Origin: Amoeboradix gromovi | Taxonomy: Eukaryota > Sanchytriomycota > Sanchytriomycetes > Sanchytriales > Sanchytriaceae | Direction of reading: 5' to 3' | Assembly (NCBI GenBank): GCA_018985225.1 | Contig: JADGIF010000063.1 | Location: 1-23,997 of the forward strand | DNA length: 23,997 nucleotides | Shown here: piece by piece, positions 3,791-23,054 of the stretch | How positions within the stretch are numbered: the first letter of the stretch is position 1 | Layout of the letters: each line of letters begins with the position of its first letter | Position numbers and translations under genes: made by a program | The notes under the pieces: model-generated | The model's database searches: none | Seen by the model: the letters and a program-made list of their open reading frames with translations, nothing else | Told to the model about the DNA's origin: nothing

Positions 3791-4035
3791 CAAAGGGAAA
3801 GACATTGGCGGAATGTGATGAAGCAATTACTGCTCAAACGTGTACAACGGTGGAACTATAAAGAGACGCAACTTGGAGAAGTATTACTGCACAAACTGTC
3901 TTCAACTAGCAGATAGAGACAATATGGCATCAAGAAAATTGTACTTGAAGTCTACCTTCCATATGCAATACAACCTCATTTCATTGGAAGCGTGAGCAAC
4001 CAATGTAATGGAGCTACTGGAATTGTTAATATGTC
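3791..4035 (+). pseudogene. Decayed Fanzor/TnpB-family transposon gene, 3' fragment (copy 1)
   Basis: This is a broken copy of the RuvC-III/zinc-finger end of a TnpB/Fanzor protein. In frame it gives LAECDEAITAQTCT, then a one-base frameshift near 3860, then LEKYYCTNCLQLADRDNMAS. The second C-x2-C knuckle and the DRDNMA motif survive; the first knuckle has lost its second cysteine. It aligns along its length with the better copy at 5465-5765, including the start of the conserved tail (GCGTGAGCAACCA at 3990-4002). The upstream RuvC-I and RuvC-II parts are not recognisable, so it cannot encode a nuclease. Family assignment is from the zinc-knuckle and DRD-N/M-A motifs. Confidence 0.7.
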
Positions 4036-4578
4036 CTAAACCGGGACTTGGCGAGATTGCGGGAAAAAATAAGGCTTTACTCGAGACTATCTCATAGCAA
4101 GAGCCCATTTAGGCGTCTGATACCGGCTAGTCATATAAACTCGTTGAATAAGGTTACCTTGGCTCTAGCCATTGCAGGAGCCAAATTCAAATTTCATTAT
4201 AATACTATAAGAATTCTAGTCTTGAGCGAAGTCAACAATATCTTGAGCTCTATGCGGTAACAGGCAAACTTTTTAAAAATCAAACACAGATGTCTAAAAA
4301 TTTGCGCCAGCAAGACACAACAACTTTAAAAGATGGGGTTACATGAATTTTACTATAGGCTCGAAATTTTGGCTGTCTTACAAAACGGTACTTGCTCTAC
4401 TAAAACTTGACAAACATTTTAAATTATGTCCCAAAAAGTAAATATAGTCAAATAGAAATATCCCATACTTATGACCTATGCTCTAGACTGTAAGCTATTA
4501 CCACTATTTTTCTTCTTTCTAGTAACCTATCTCAAGATTGTTGAGTAGTTTCTATCAATCGAAGGTTGTTCTAACATG
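4036..4578. other. Intergenic sequence, nothing recognised
   Basis: This stretch of about 540 bp separates Fanzor-family copy 1 from the TIR element. A plus-strand frame of about 70 codons (4048-4260) begins only at TTG, has no recognisable motif and is not conserved in the other copies. No RNA gene is apparent. Confidence 0.4.
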
Positions 4579-4604: not shown

Positions 4605-5012
4605 AACTTTCTGTAACAACTTGAGCATTATTTAAGAGGCGAGTGGATATTCAGCTAGTTGCGGAGTTGACGAGTATAAAAGGAAAATAAATATTCTGTA
4701 CAGCTATTCTCTTACTCTTTCATCCAATCTTTATTACAAATAAAATATCACTATTACCCTGTAAAAACTAGAATAGATAAGAGTAATGATGTTAGTATAA
4801 CATTACCAAATGGCTCTAGAAAAGAGTACCGTCTAAGAAAATGCACCTTTTGCTTACATGCTCAAAGACCTCATATATTGGAACGAGGTGCAAGGTCTTC
4901 TAGTTTTATTTTGAAAAGAGGAATACAATCAATGAAAGAATCTTTGTATAACAGAAGATCTTTTATTAATGACAGCATTTCCTCCGTATGGTGCACCTTT
5001 AAAAACGAGTTA

Positions 5013-5038
5013 GTCTAGTTTTTATATTTGGTGTCCCA
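5013..5038 (-). repeat. Right terminal inverted repeat of TIR element copy 1
   Basis: It ends TTTTTATATTTGGTGTCCCA. It is the reverse complement of the left end with four mismatches, and is nearly identical to both ends of the element at 21707-22116. Confidence 0.65.
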
Positions 5039-5040
5039 TA

Positions 5041-5165
5041 TATCGTTGTTCAATCCCGCCTCAAGCTGTTAAAAGCATGAGTAGCCACTTTAATGAATCG
5101 ACTATCTTTTTTAGTTGCTCAGTCAAAATTCTTGATTTGCTAGAAAAGCAGCTCGATTGTTTTCT
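5041..5165 (+). repeat. Diverged Fanzor-family tail (solo copy)
   Basis: This is homologous to the tail after the zinc finger of the copy at 5388-5765. A 15-nt block (TTCAATCCCGCCTCA) is identical at 5049-5063 and 5654-5668, and later blocks (ATGAGTAGCCACT; ATTCTTGATTTGCTAGAAA) follow in the same order. No zinc-finger coding precedes it: the TIR element ends two bases before it, suggesting insertion or deletion at this junction. Confidence 0.6.
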
Positions 5166-5239
5166 TGAATAAATCATTATTGCGAATTTGTATATATTTT
5201 TGTATCATTTCAAGACTTTTCCAGATTATTCTAATAGCT

Positions 5240-5765
5240 TAAATACTCGATATTCTTCCTTTTCGCAAATGGTAAATGGAACAAATAGATGTAATCCTGA
5301 ACATGTCAAATCTAAAGAAATAATTAGCAGGTACAGCATACAAAGACAAATGATCTTATATACTTACCCTCGTTCAATACGAGCCAGATGCTAAGTAGCT
5401 TGTCGAGAAAGGTCGCAAGATATATGGCTACGATGTCCCATTACGCATTCAAGGAACGCTTGAAGTTCAAGTGTAAGCAAAGAGGAAAGACGATGGCCGA
5501 ATGCAATGAATCATTTACTAGTCAGACATGTACAAGGTGTGGTACTCTAAAGAAAACCAATTTGGAAACTTACACCTGTACAAAGTGTCATTTGAAGATA
5601 GATAGAGACCATATGGCTGCAAGGAACATATACATCAAGTATATGCATCCTTATTCAATCCCGCCTCAGGGTAGTGAAAGCGTGAGCAATCACTGTAACG
5701 GAGAAACTTGCATTAGTTTCTCTGTGGAAATTCTCGATTTTCTCGGAAATCAGGACTTTTAACGA
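5240..5765 (+). pseudogene. Fanzor/TnpB-family RNA-guided nuclease gene, 3' part with intact zinc finger (copy 2)
   Basis: This is the best copy in the window. An open frame of 124 codons (5388-5762) encodes FKERLKFKCKQRGKTMAEC, then NESFTSQTC48TRC51, C64TKC67, and D72RD74HMAARNIYIKY. This is the C-terminal RuvC-III plus zinc-ribbon of TnpB/Fanzor proteins (E-x-yTSqtC-x2-C ... C-x2-C ... DRD-x-x-A-x-NI). The usual N after DRD-x is M here. Upstream, 5250-5390 has fragments (EHVKSKEI) shared with the copy near 22440, but RuvC-I and RuvC-II are absent, so the protein is truncated (full proteins are over 350 aa) and very unlikely to cut DNA. The frame continues through the conserved tail, where the other copies have stops, so the last 35 codons are probably not native. 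Confidence 0.78.
5654..5765 (+). ncRNA. Candidate structured RNA: three-hairpin tail of the Fanzor-family element
   Basis: Directly after the zinc-finger coding lie three potential hairpins. The first is GTGA-GCAA-TCAC at 5682-5693, with a GNRA-type tetraloop. The second is GAGAAACT-TGCATT-AGTTTCTC at 5701-5722, 8 perfect pairs. The third is GATTT-TCTCGG-AAATC at 5736-5751. The tail recurs in all family copies in this window. In bacterial TnpB and eukaryotic Fanzor systems the guide (omega) RNA scaffold sits at this position, overlapping or following the ORF 3' end. Function as a guide scaffold is inference; the hairpins are seen by eye, not by folding software. Confidence 0.42.
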
Positions 5766-6206
5766 GGAGGTGTAGCAAACTATGGGATGTTACAGATTTG
5801 GAACTACCAAAATAGCATCTTTCCACTAAGCGTATATCGGTTTCTTGTTCAAAATACCACGGCAGTCCATGCTTTTGTTCTTGCCTTTGCCATAAGCAAA
5901 GTAAATGGCTTTTTATCACATTTTGTATTCCCAGCCAACATATCTCCTAATGTTCTTTGCATCAAATCCGCTGATTTTCGCTCAAATCTGAGGCCCTTTC
6001 TTTAATTCCCTTGTGCCATGTCCAGATCTTAGCAATGGCAACTGTACATTCTGAATATGATAATTAATGTTGCATAACAGTTTAGGAACAGACTGGTCGC
6101 TATTACAGCCGAGGAGAACATTAGAACTATTTTGCTTACTTAAGAGCCTACTCTAGTCGTGTTTTCTAGTGTTAATGATGATTTTAGTACTATACTGGTC
6201 TAAAAT
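5766..6206. other. Intergenic sequence with no supported gene
   Basis: Short open frames exist on both strands (for example 5787-6005 plus) but none carries a recognisable motif or a family resemblance. The reverse-strand frame at 5713-5919 runs antisense through the Fanzor tail. The region may contain further decayed mobile sequence. Confidence 0.4.
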
Positions 6207-11860: not shown

Positions 11861-12005
11861 AGCAAGCTATAAGGAACATACACTTATATACATCTCTATT
11901 CAACCGCAACTCAGTGAAGTGTGAGCAATTACTGTAACGGAAAGAATTGTATTGCAAGTTTCTCTGTCGAAGTTTTTGGTTTTCTCGTAAACCAAAAGTT
12001 TAATG
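11861..12005 (+). repeat. Fanzor-family remnant: last coding residues plus conserved tail (copy 3)
   Basis: GCTATAAGGAACATACACTT matches the end of the zinc-finger coding in copy 2 (the A-x-RNI residues). It is followed by the whole conserved tail: CAACCGCAACTCAGTGAAG, GTGAGCAATTACTGTAACGG, GTTTCTCTGTCGAAG and the last stem. Tail hairpins here are GTGA-GCAA-TTAC (11921-11932, one G-U pair) and GGTTT-TCTCGT-AAACC (11978-11993). Almost no protein is left, so the tail has survived better than the gene. It ends about 37 bp before the NBP35 start and must overlap that gene's promoter or 5' UTR. Confidence 0.65.
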
Positions 12006-12042
12006 AACAGCTATCAATTACTCCTTTGTTTTTGTTCGGTTT

Positions 12043-21660: not shown

Positions 21661-21706
21661 CGAAATGTGATTATAATCTGAAAAACTGTCATTTAGTAAT
21701 TATATT

Positions 21707-21732
21707 TGGGACACCGAATATAAAAACTAGAC
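21707..21732 (+). repeat. Terminal inverted repeat of TIR element copy 2 (CDF side)
   Basis: It begins TGGGACACCGAATATAAAAA and pairs with 22091-22116 with three mismatches. Confidence 0.65.
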
Positions 21733-22090
21733 CAAGTCGTTTTTAAAGGAAGTGCTGCATAAGGAGGAAATGCTATTATTAACAAAAGTCGTCCTTCTTT
21801 CAAATCAATTTTATTTCATTAATGACATTCTTCTCTTTAAAATAAAACAGGATGACCCACTCTCTTTCAAATTTATAAGGTCTTTGAGTGTCTAAGCAAA
21901 AGGTGCACTATCTTAGACGATACTCTTTATCTGTTCCATTTTCTTTTTCTTCTTCTTATTAATCATTGTTTATAAGATTGTAATGGATGAAAAGCTTTTA
22001 TACTAAAATAATTTACTTGAGCAGATCAATTTAATTTACTATCAGTTAACATACACTTGATCTAATGATTCAAACTATTTCAGAAAGTAA

Positions 22091-22116
22091 GTCTAGTTTT
22101 TATATTTAATGTCCCA
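22091..22116 (-). repeat. Terminal inverted repeat of TIR element copy 2 (distal side)
   Basis: It ends TTTTATATTTAATGTCCCA and is nearly identical to the right end of the first element (5013-5038). Confidence 0.65.
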
Positions 22117-22388: not shown

Positions 22389-22905
22389 TTGGTGACATCT
22401 CTTCTGATCGCAAACAGCCAACAATCTCATCTTGAATATGTCAAATCTAAGAGACGACTAATAAATAAAAGCGAACTCTTCCGCAAAACCAATCATATCT
22501 CTCAGCGCCGAAAAAGAGACCTCTATACAACATACCACACATTCAAAAATCGCCTTATTAGTCCTCAAAAGAGATGATCTATGTCCACGACTGATTTAAG
22601 GAGCGCTTGAAGTTCAAGCGTAAACAAGAAGTACGAAATTGGTTGAATGTTCTGAAGCATTTAGTGGTCAGGGACTTAAAGGTGTAGTACTCTGAATAAT
22701 AGCAATCTGGAGAGAAACATACACAAACTGCAGTTTGTAAGTATATAGAGACCATAAGACAGCAACCCACATACTCTTGAGTGCATGCATCCTTAACCAG
22801 TCCCACGTAAGGCTAGTGCAAGTGTGATCAACCACTGTAACGTAATGACGGGGATTTAGTTCTCTGAGGAGATTCATGATTTTCTAAAAACCAGATTTCT
22901 CAGGA
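22389..22905 (+). pseudogene. Decayed Fanzor/TnpB-family gene and tail (copy 4)
   Basis: An open stretch from about 22389 to 22577 includes LEYVKSK, matching EHVKSK of copy 2, and a basic helical part (SQRRKRDLYTTYHTFKNRL) of the kind found in the recognition lobe of TnpB-like proteins. After a stop, GAGCGCTTGAAGTTCAAGCG (22600-22619) matches copy 2 at 5453-5472. It continues through a much-decayed zinc-finger region (stops and shifts) to the tail, AGTGTGATCAACCACTGTAA (22821-22840), and ends near 22905. It carries more upstream sequence than the other copies. It cannot make a full protein. Confidence 0.6.
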
Positions 22906-23054
22906 TACAAAAACTGGGATATTTAAATACGCAGTTTTAGCTTTGAGACAGAGGTTTAAAGAGTTTGGCTAGTTTTCCTTTTGGTTCCCGCATATTTATC
23001 AATTACAGAGGTTTCTTCTAATTTTCCAAACAATAAAAATACTTGCAATTAACA

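Follow-up and report, generated by a model that had tools for sequence, protein, structure and literature searches.

A high-copy, probably Fanzor2-derived element of Amoeboradix gromovi with an RNA-like right end and a putative guide-RNA scaffold

The stretch of Amoeboradix gromovi DNA analyzed here (the window, 23,997 nucleotides of contig JADGIF010000063.1) carries an open frame of 144 aa (5328-5762) that ends with a stop at 5760-5762 and spans two parts, the C-terminal core of a Fanzor protein and a tail with three hairpins (Table 1). The frame matched PF07282 (E = 1.2e-19), and the solved structure closest to it in sequence was that of the TnpB-like protein L79 (9b0l; E = 1.9e-10), a mimivirus Fanzor2. 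It carries the series TSQTCTRCG..CTKC..DRD, corresponding to the motif given for IS607-type Fanzor2 proteins, namely [TS][TS]xx and a four-cysteine zinc finger followed by RD (PMC3627910). From two copies of the tail in this window, a conserved structured RNA at the 3' end of the Fanzor sequence, possibly a guide-RNA scaffold, had been proposed. The copy shown here belongs to a large family of short elements, which that prediction had not seen.

Table 1. Element, parts of the element and related tails in the window
Feature	Positions	Strand	Basis
Diverged tail	3974..4093	+	57 bits
Old diverged tail directly before the element (model match extends to 5172, into the young left end)	5059..5147	+	66.8 bits
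Non-autonomous Fanzor-derived element (this copy), ~622 bp	5148..5769	+	Homology between copies starts near 5148 and ends near 5769
Left end, ..CAG|CT.., with fixed junction to the Fanzor part	5148..5335	+	40 of 40 scored at 86-100%; 52 left junctions
Fanzor C-terminal core remnant with zinc finger	5336..5639	+	PF07282, E = 1.2e-19; third-position excess among copies
Tail: right end and putative guide-RNA scaffold, in open frame to the stop at 5760-5762	5640..5769	+	No third-position excess; four-fold sites conserved
SL1, outer stem AGTGA/TCACT	5672..5695	+	Compensatory changes beyond chance
SL2, longest hairpin, 11-bp stem in this copy	5698..5725	+	RNAfold; covariation not significant
SL3, upper stem GATTT/AAATC at 5736-5751	5728..5759	+	RNAfold; covariation not significant
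Terminal CGAGGAG of the right end; candidate pseudoknot partner of CCTC at 5664-5667	5763..5769	+	60 right junctions
Flank, putative guide (length assumed)	5770..5790	+	Inference; flank varies among copies
Diverged tail, the copy on which the original prediction drew	11904..12016	+	82.1 bits
Diverged tail	22806..22914	+	64.3 bits

Extent, copies and relatives of the element

The element consists of a left end of ~190 bp, a fixed junction, the last ~300 bp of the Fanzor core and the tail. Searching the genome (6,779,989 bases in 366 contigs) with the tail as a DNA query gave 429 first-look candidates, and the 40 best, which were scored, all matched at 95-100%. The left-end query gave 361, and the 40 best again all matched when scored (86-100%). 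Copy numbers of the element given here are these first-look candidates, only the best rows of which were scored. The termini read ..CAG|CT.. on the left and ..AACGAGGAG| on the right, and the ends were sharp at the 52 left and 60 right junctions inspected. Neither terminal inverted repeats nor target duplications were seen at these junctions, as judged by inspection. Another list of junctions comprised, after removal of identical strings, 49 left and 67 right ones, whose flanks look unrelated except for those of two loci (L039 and L063) with a common left flank. The conserved region runs up to the right end of the element, where it adjoins the variable flank, and a minority of copies show other bases after AACGAG. 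This minority, together with the AG at both ends, would be consistent with a serine recombinase that exchanges at an AG dinucleotide; the exchange of IS607 itself occurs at GG (PMC6188088). A search for empty sites within the fetched loci returned three matches, none of which was accepted as a clean empty site.

Both ends were in hand in 50 copies, spanning about 310-620 bp. Among the fetched loci, 97 distinct tails exceeded 85% identity to the tail at 5640-5769: 41 were accompanied by left end, core and zinc finger, 11 by left end and zinc finger with no match to the core stretch, 38 were truncated where the locus ended, and 7 showed other patterns. The family thus has the composition of a ghost element, since the ends and a putative scaffold are kept without a whole nuclease gene. 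Both in the window (old tail at 5059-5151, element from 5148) and in another locus (L050:3032-3146), young elements immediately follow old tails of this type, perhaps because insertion at older right ends is preferred. Another repeat family occupies 4630-5041 and 21702-22112 of the window. Its terminal inverted repeats (TGGGACACCRAATATAAAAACTAGAC) were recognized by eye, and parts of the repeat match many fetched loci.

More of the Fanzor gene precedes the same tail in two loci (L121 and L126), in both of which it is split into several frames. L121 retains, before this tail, the DPG motif at RuvC-I (ALDPGVRKFL), as well as an inverted fragment of a serine recombinase (54% identical over 48 aa). 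Within the ~0.3 Mb read of the 6.78-Mb assembly, we saw neither an intact Fanzor2 nor an intact recombinase of this subfamily. An apparently intact IS607-type pair of another subfamily was found on the minus strand of locus L079 (G000:C218), where a 672-aa Fanzor2-type frame with PF07282 (274-2292) overlaps a 210-aa serine-recombinase frame (1568-2200). It has the core in common with our element (54% over 98 aa) but not the tail. Its own 3' end forms three hairpins of other sequence (z = -1.38) and, used as a DNA query, matched itself alone. Among the homologs of L079 are proteins assigned by name to Ectocarpus, Pylaiella and Lipomyces, and a search of viral contigs for its relatives gave two pattern matches, neither of them a relative. 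In the whole genome, we found eight matches to serine recombinases and no candidate for a Y1 transposase (PF01797), a search that was positive in 5 of 14 control genomes. A further locus (L080, G000:C351) encodes at 346-2592 a 748-aa open frame with PF07282, unlike that of L079 and perhaps a Fanzor1-type protein, and contains a diverged copy of the tail at positions 1-91. The L079 protein (P0001) is present in EukProt under a contig name with a coverage of 0.86, which points to a low-coverage assembly; its repeats may therefore be partly chimeric.

Codon pattern of the core and the tail

The most informative of the available comparisons was that of codon positions, over which the divergence between copies was distributed in different ways in the two parts of the frame. 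In 96 young rows, it was 0.064, 0.043 and 0.162 at the first, second and third positions of the core, and 0.086, 0.063 and 0.039 in the tail. The corresponding values in 37 old rows were 0.204, 0.203 and 0.378 in the core and 0.238, 0.238 and 0.265 in the tail (2 of the 135 rows, with 80-85% identity, were left out). The excess at third positions is thus found in the Fanzor core and is absent from the tail.

The variants of 38 copies spanning the junction were divided into singletons and shared variants. Singletons were flat over the three codon positions in the core (49/58/56) and in the tail (26/24/28), as neutral decay predicts. For sites with variants common to at least four copies, the counts were 13/8/30 (core) and 4/7/2 (tail). 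In the core, synonymous and other changes stood at 27:27 among shared variants versus 28:130 among singletons (P = 9e-6), while the tail showed no such excess of shared synonymous change (2:11 versus 15:57; P = 1). In the same copies, four-fold sites diverged more in the core (0.146; 30 sites) than in the tail (0.026; 13 sites; one-sided P = 0.003). These contrasts indicate that selection on the source of the copies acted on the protein in the core and on the nucleotides themselves in the tail. The signal of the core comes from copies with the deletion junction, so either selection acted on the short frame itself or sequence passed between short copies and coding ones. By eye, the variants shared in the core form a mosaic among the 38 copies, which favors exchange between copies, although the mosaic may partly be an artifact of the assembly.

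Fold and compensatory changes of the tail

The letters of the two copies compared in the original prediction read as given there: GATTT/AAATC at 5736-5751 versus GGTTT/AAACC at 11978-11993 for the third stem, and for the first GTGA-GCAA-TCAC, here at 5682-5693, versus GTGA-GCAA-TTAC at 11921-11932. The three hairpins expected for 5654-5765 were recovered by RNAfold (z = -2.69), with 4 of 200 dinucleotide shuffles folding as well. For the longer stretch 5620-5769 the hairpins formed with z = -3.90, a value reached by 1 of 200 shuffles. Hairpins arising by chance were rejected, because so few shuffles match the fold of 5654-5765 and because the stretch recurs as a family. The second copy did not behave in the same way, its sequence (11895-12010) being matched in stability by 85 of 200 shuffles (z = -0.13). 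Five other tails of the family gave z values from -0.83 to -2.60 with the same control. Against mononucleotide shuffles, the mean z of 82 tails was -0.87 (below -2 in 14 of them) and that of 21 diverged tails was -0.48. The stability of the fold across the family is therefore modest and not outstanding. Folded as DNA, the tail was better than shuffles (z = -2.15) and the left end worse (z = 1.91).

The first hairpin is probably paired differently from the way first proposed. RNAfold pairs AGTGA (5673-5677) with TCACT (5690-5694) and not GTGA with TCAC, and in diverged tails the former was paired in 101 of 135 cells versus 67 of 112 for the latter. In young tails, GTGA/TCAC was better kept (196 of 204 cells, versus 227 of 255 for AGTGA/TCACT) and formed an intact stem in 43 of 51 copies, versus 28 of 51. 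The common indel in SL2 has a length of 3 nt. A candidate pairing of CCUC (5664-5667) with the terminal bases appears in the minimum-energy fold of 5620-5769. The four pairs of this candidate pseudoknot, CCUC with GAGG, could form in 51 of 78, 68 of 78, 69 of 79 and 58 of 79 tails, with no clear covariation. An Rfam search of 5100-5900 gave no match at E ≤ 1, which covers RAGATH-18 if it is in that release, its presence in Rfam being taken from PMC11061315.

Covariation was examined by collecting the copies and building a covariance model, as the original prediction had advised. The first model was built from 30 hand-picked tails out of 81, of which 19 were diverged and 11 young; a duplicate and the four diverged tails with the poorest alignment had been dropped. 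It was run over the window and 67 of 80 loci (13 overlapping others were left out) and gave 93 matches, corresponding to 82 distinct tails. In the alignment of these 82 rows fitted to the model, 88.1% of the cells were paired, versus at most 49.1% when the partners were slid, and the covariation score was 0.122 versus at most 0.059. Changes on both sides affected 21 pairs (13-19 when slid) and 40 cells (25-41). A second search covered the window and 59 loci, selected so as to raise the share of diverged copies, and gave 82 matches (80 distinct); it included 40 further stretches picked as likely diverged, many of which proved young. Its fitted alignment was similar: 84.5% of cells paired versus 45.0%, a score of 0.135 versus 0.070, and changes on both sides in 20 pairs (15-19) and 40 cells (23-44). 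In neither alignment did the count of cells changed on both sides exceed all slid versions.

The number of compensatory double changes was then compared with that expected when the same number of substitutions is placed at random. SL1 showed 23 such changes versus 12.5 expected (P = 0.0002), and no significant excess was found in SL2 (9 versus 9.7; P = 0.67) or SL3 (6 versus 4.1; P = 0.22). In an alignment made blind to structure, which covered SL1 and SL3, the excess persisted for the whole of SL1 (23 versus 13.0; P = 0.003) and was weaker after removal of the most striking copy, L026 (17 versus 10.7; P = 0.027). It was larger for the outer stem (21 versus 9.7, reached in 0 of 5,000 permutations; 17 versus 8.4 and P = 0.0004 without L026) and absent from SL3 (4 versus 4.0; P = 0.59). 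Examples of outer-stem variants are AGTGG/CCACT, ATTGG/CCAAT, AGCCG/CGGCT and ACCAG/CTGGT. These permutations ignore the relatedness between copies, so the P values serve as guides. Significant compensatory change was therefore confined to SL1, in the form AGTGA/TCACT. The double change that had drawn attention to the third stem is real, but SL3 as a whole does not covary beyond chance.

Origin and possible function of the tail

The tail evolves like a structured RNA and not like protein code. A conserved, RNA-like element at the 3' end of the Fanzor sequence, as originally predicted, is supported by its copy number, the codon contrast, the constrained synonymous sites and the compensation in SL1; its guide function is suggested by analogy. 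We consider it probable (roughly 0.7) that a short non-autonomous element, derived from an IS607-type Fanzor2 transposon, ends on the right with this tail and that the tail encodes the guide-RNA scaffold of that transposon. The element most likely derives from, and would work like, the right end of an IS607-type Fanzor2. The genome contains an IS607-type recombinase and a Fanzor2-type gene but no Y1 transposase, and there are precedents for both three-stem-loop scaffolds and ghosts. The family is thus probably an abundant Fanzor2 "ghost" family, a variant of the known guide-RNA loci without protein.

The closest precedents described are the Spu-1 ghosts of the Fanzor1 of Spizellomyces punctatus, short loci with both ends and the guide-RNA region of the right end but no nuclease gene (PMC10432273). 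That source counts 134 such loci beside 42 with full-length or partial genes and reports that the scaffolds of four ghosts were functional with SpuFz1 in human cells. Our element resembles them in having its ends, a putative scaffold at the right end and no whole nuclease gene. It differs in being Fanzor2-like, in showing no inverted repeats, which Spu-1 has, and in retaining a piece of coding sequence that overlaps the tail. Ghosts of Fanzor2 may already have been published, since a figure legend of the same source also mentions ghost loci beside Fanzor2 genes in Naegleria lovaniensis and Mercenaria mercenaria. The available text on eukaryotic and viral IS607-type elements describes the combination of Fanzor2 with an IS607-like serine recombinase (PMC3627910), which is also that of L079, and the zinc finger and RD motif recur in our element; structured tails or short Fanzor2 derivatives are not described in that text.

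Among TnpB systems, the reRNA of ISXfa1, an IS607 element, is an RNA of ~150 nt from the right end that extends beyond the element and has three predicted stem-loops (PMC10711439). The fold of the tail fits this layout. The ISXfa1 pseudoknot was demonstrated by mutation, whereas the one proposed here is a candidate pairing without clear covariation. The RAGATH-18 reRNA of ISFba1, also IS607 with TnpB, has a 187-nt scaffold with three stem-loops, as here, and pseudoknots (PMC11061315). It is described there as independent of coding sequence, while our tail overlaps the frame and has no Rfam match.

By analogy with the Fanzor1 ghosts, the tail would act as the scaffold, and the guide would be the flank that starts at 5770. 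An RNA transcribed across the right end would have this 3' flank as its guide. A Fanzor2 made elsewhere would bind the scaffold and cut DNA matching the flank, as TnpB and Fanzor do, and this cutting could help the element persist. The serine recombinase of longer elements would move the short copies in trans.

Several other explanations were considered. The first concerns only the present and is compatible with the scaffold reading: the tail may once have been the scaffold of the source elements, the copies being inert relics of a family that is now dead. The stop found in 16 of the 30 best protein rows, the flat distribution of singletons and the lack of an intact partner in the part of the assembly read all point this way. 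The identity of the 40 scored tails, the best of 429 candidates, implies a fairly recent spread and speaks against it, as does the presence of L079 with its intact gene pair of another subfamily. We regard the odds of this explanation as about even, and activity of the present copy today as unlikely.

Conservation of the tail only as a DNA end, where the serine recombinase would bind and carry out exchange and the hairpins would be incidental, appears unlikely. Mobile copies must keep their ends, conservation stays strong up to the last bases, and SL2 and SL3 lack significant covariation, all of which suit such a site, but a double-stranded binding site does not predict the compensatory changes of SL1. 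It is highly improbable that the tail simply extends the coding sequence of the Fanzor C terminus. The tail is in open frame in this copy and its common SL2 indel is 3 nt long, yet this explanation was rejected on the third-position, shared-synonymous and four-fold evidence, so that the outcome named beforehand as refuting the structured RNA, a tail shown to be ordinary protein coding, was not obtained on the codon pattern of the available copies. Hairpins serving as single-stranded DNA ends of IS200/IS605-type (Y1) transposition are likewise highly improbable and were rejected, since despite their place near the right end and the fold of the tail as DNA, the genome gave no Y1 match and the left end folds worse than shuffles.

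On the reading of the tail as a guide-RNA scaffold, a broader idea may be formulated, which we hold to be quite unlikely: short Fanzor2-derived elements would have distributed guide-RNA genes by the hundreds, differing in their guides, and a small number of Fanzor2 nucleases would serve these genes in trans. A single RNA-guided nuclease of a eukaryote would in this way address hundreds of sites in its own chromosomes. No short Fanzor2 families were found among the literature matches listed, most subscription journals being outside their scope. Relative to these matches a high-copy, ghost-like Fanzor2 family would be new, guide-RNA loci without protein being already published for Fanzor1 (PMC10432273). 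Looking for a contrast between a protein-like core and an RNA-like tail in one frame is a simple method for detecting gene-overlapping guide-RNA scaffolds. If it is truly a Fanzor2 ghost family, it would provide a natural set of scaffold variants, and such an abundant Fanzor2 version without inverted repeats would suggest that loss of the nuclease gene with retention of the scaffold is a general path in eukaryotes.
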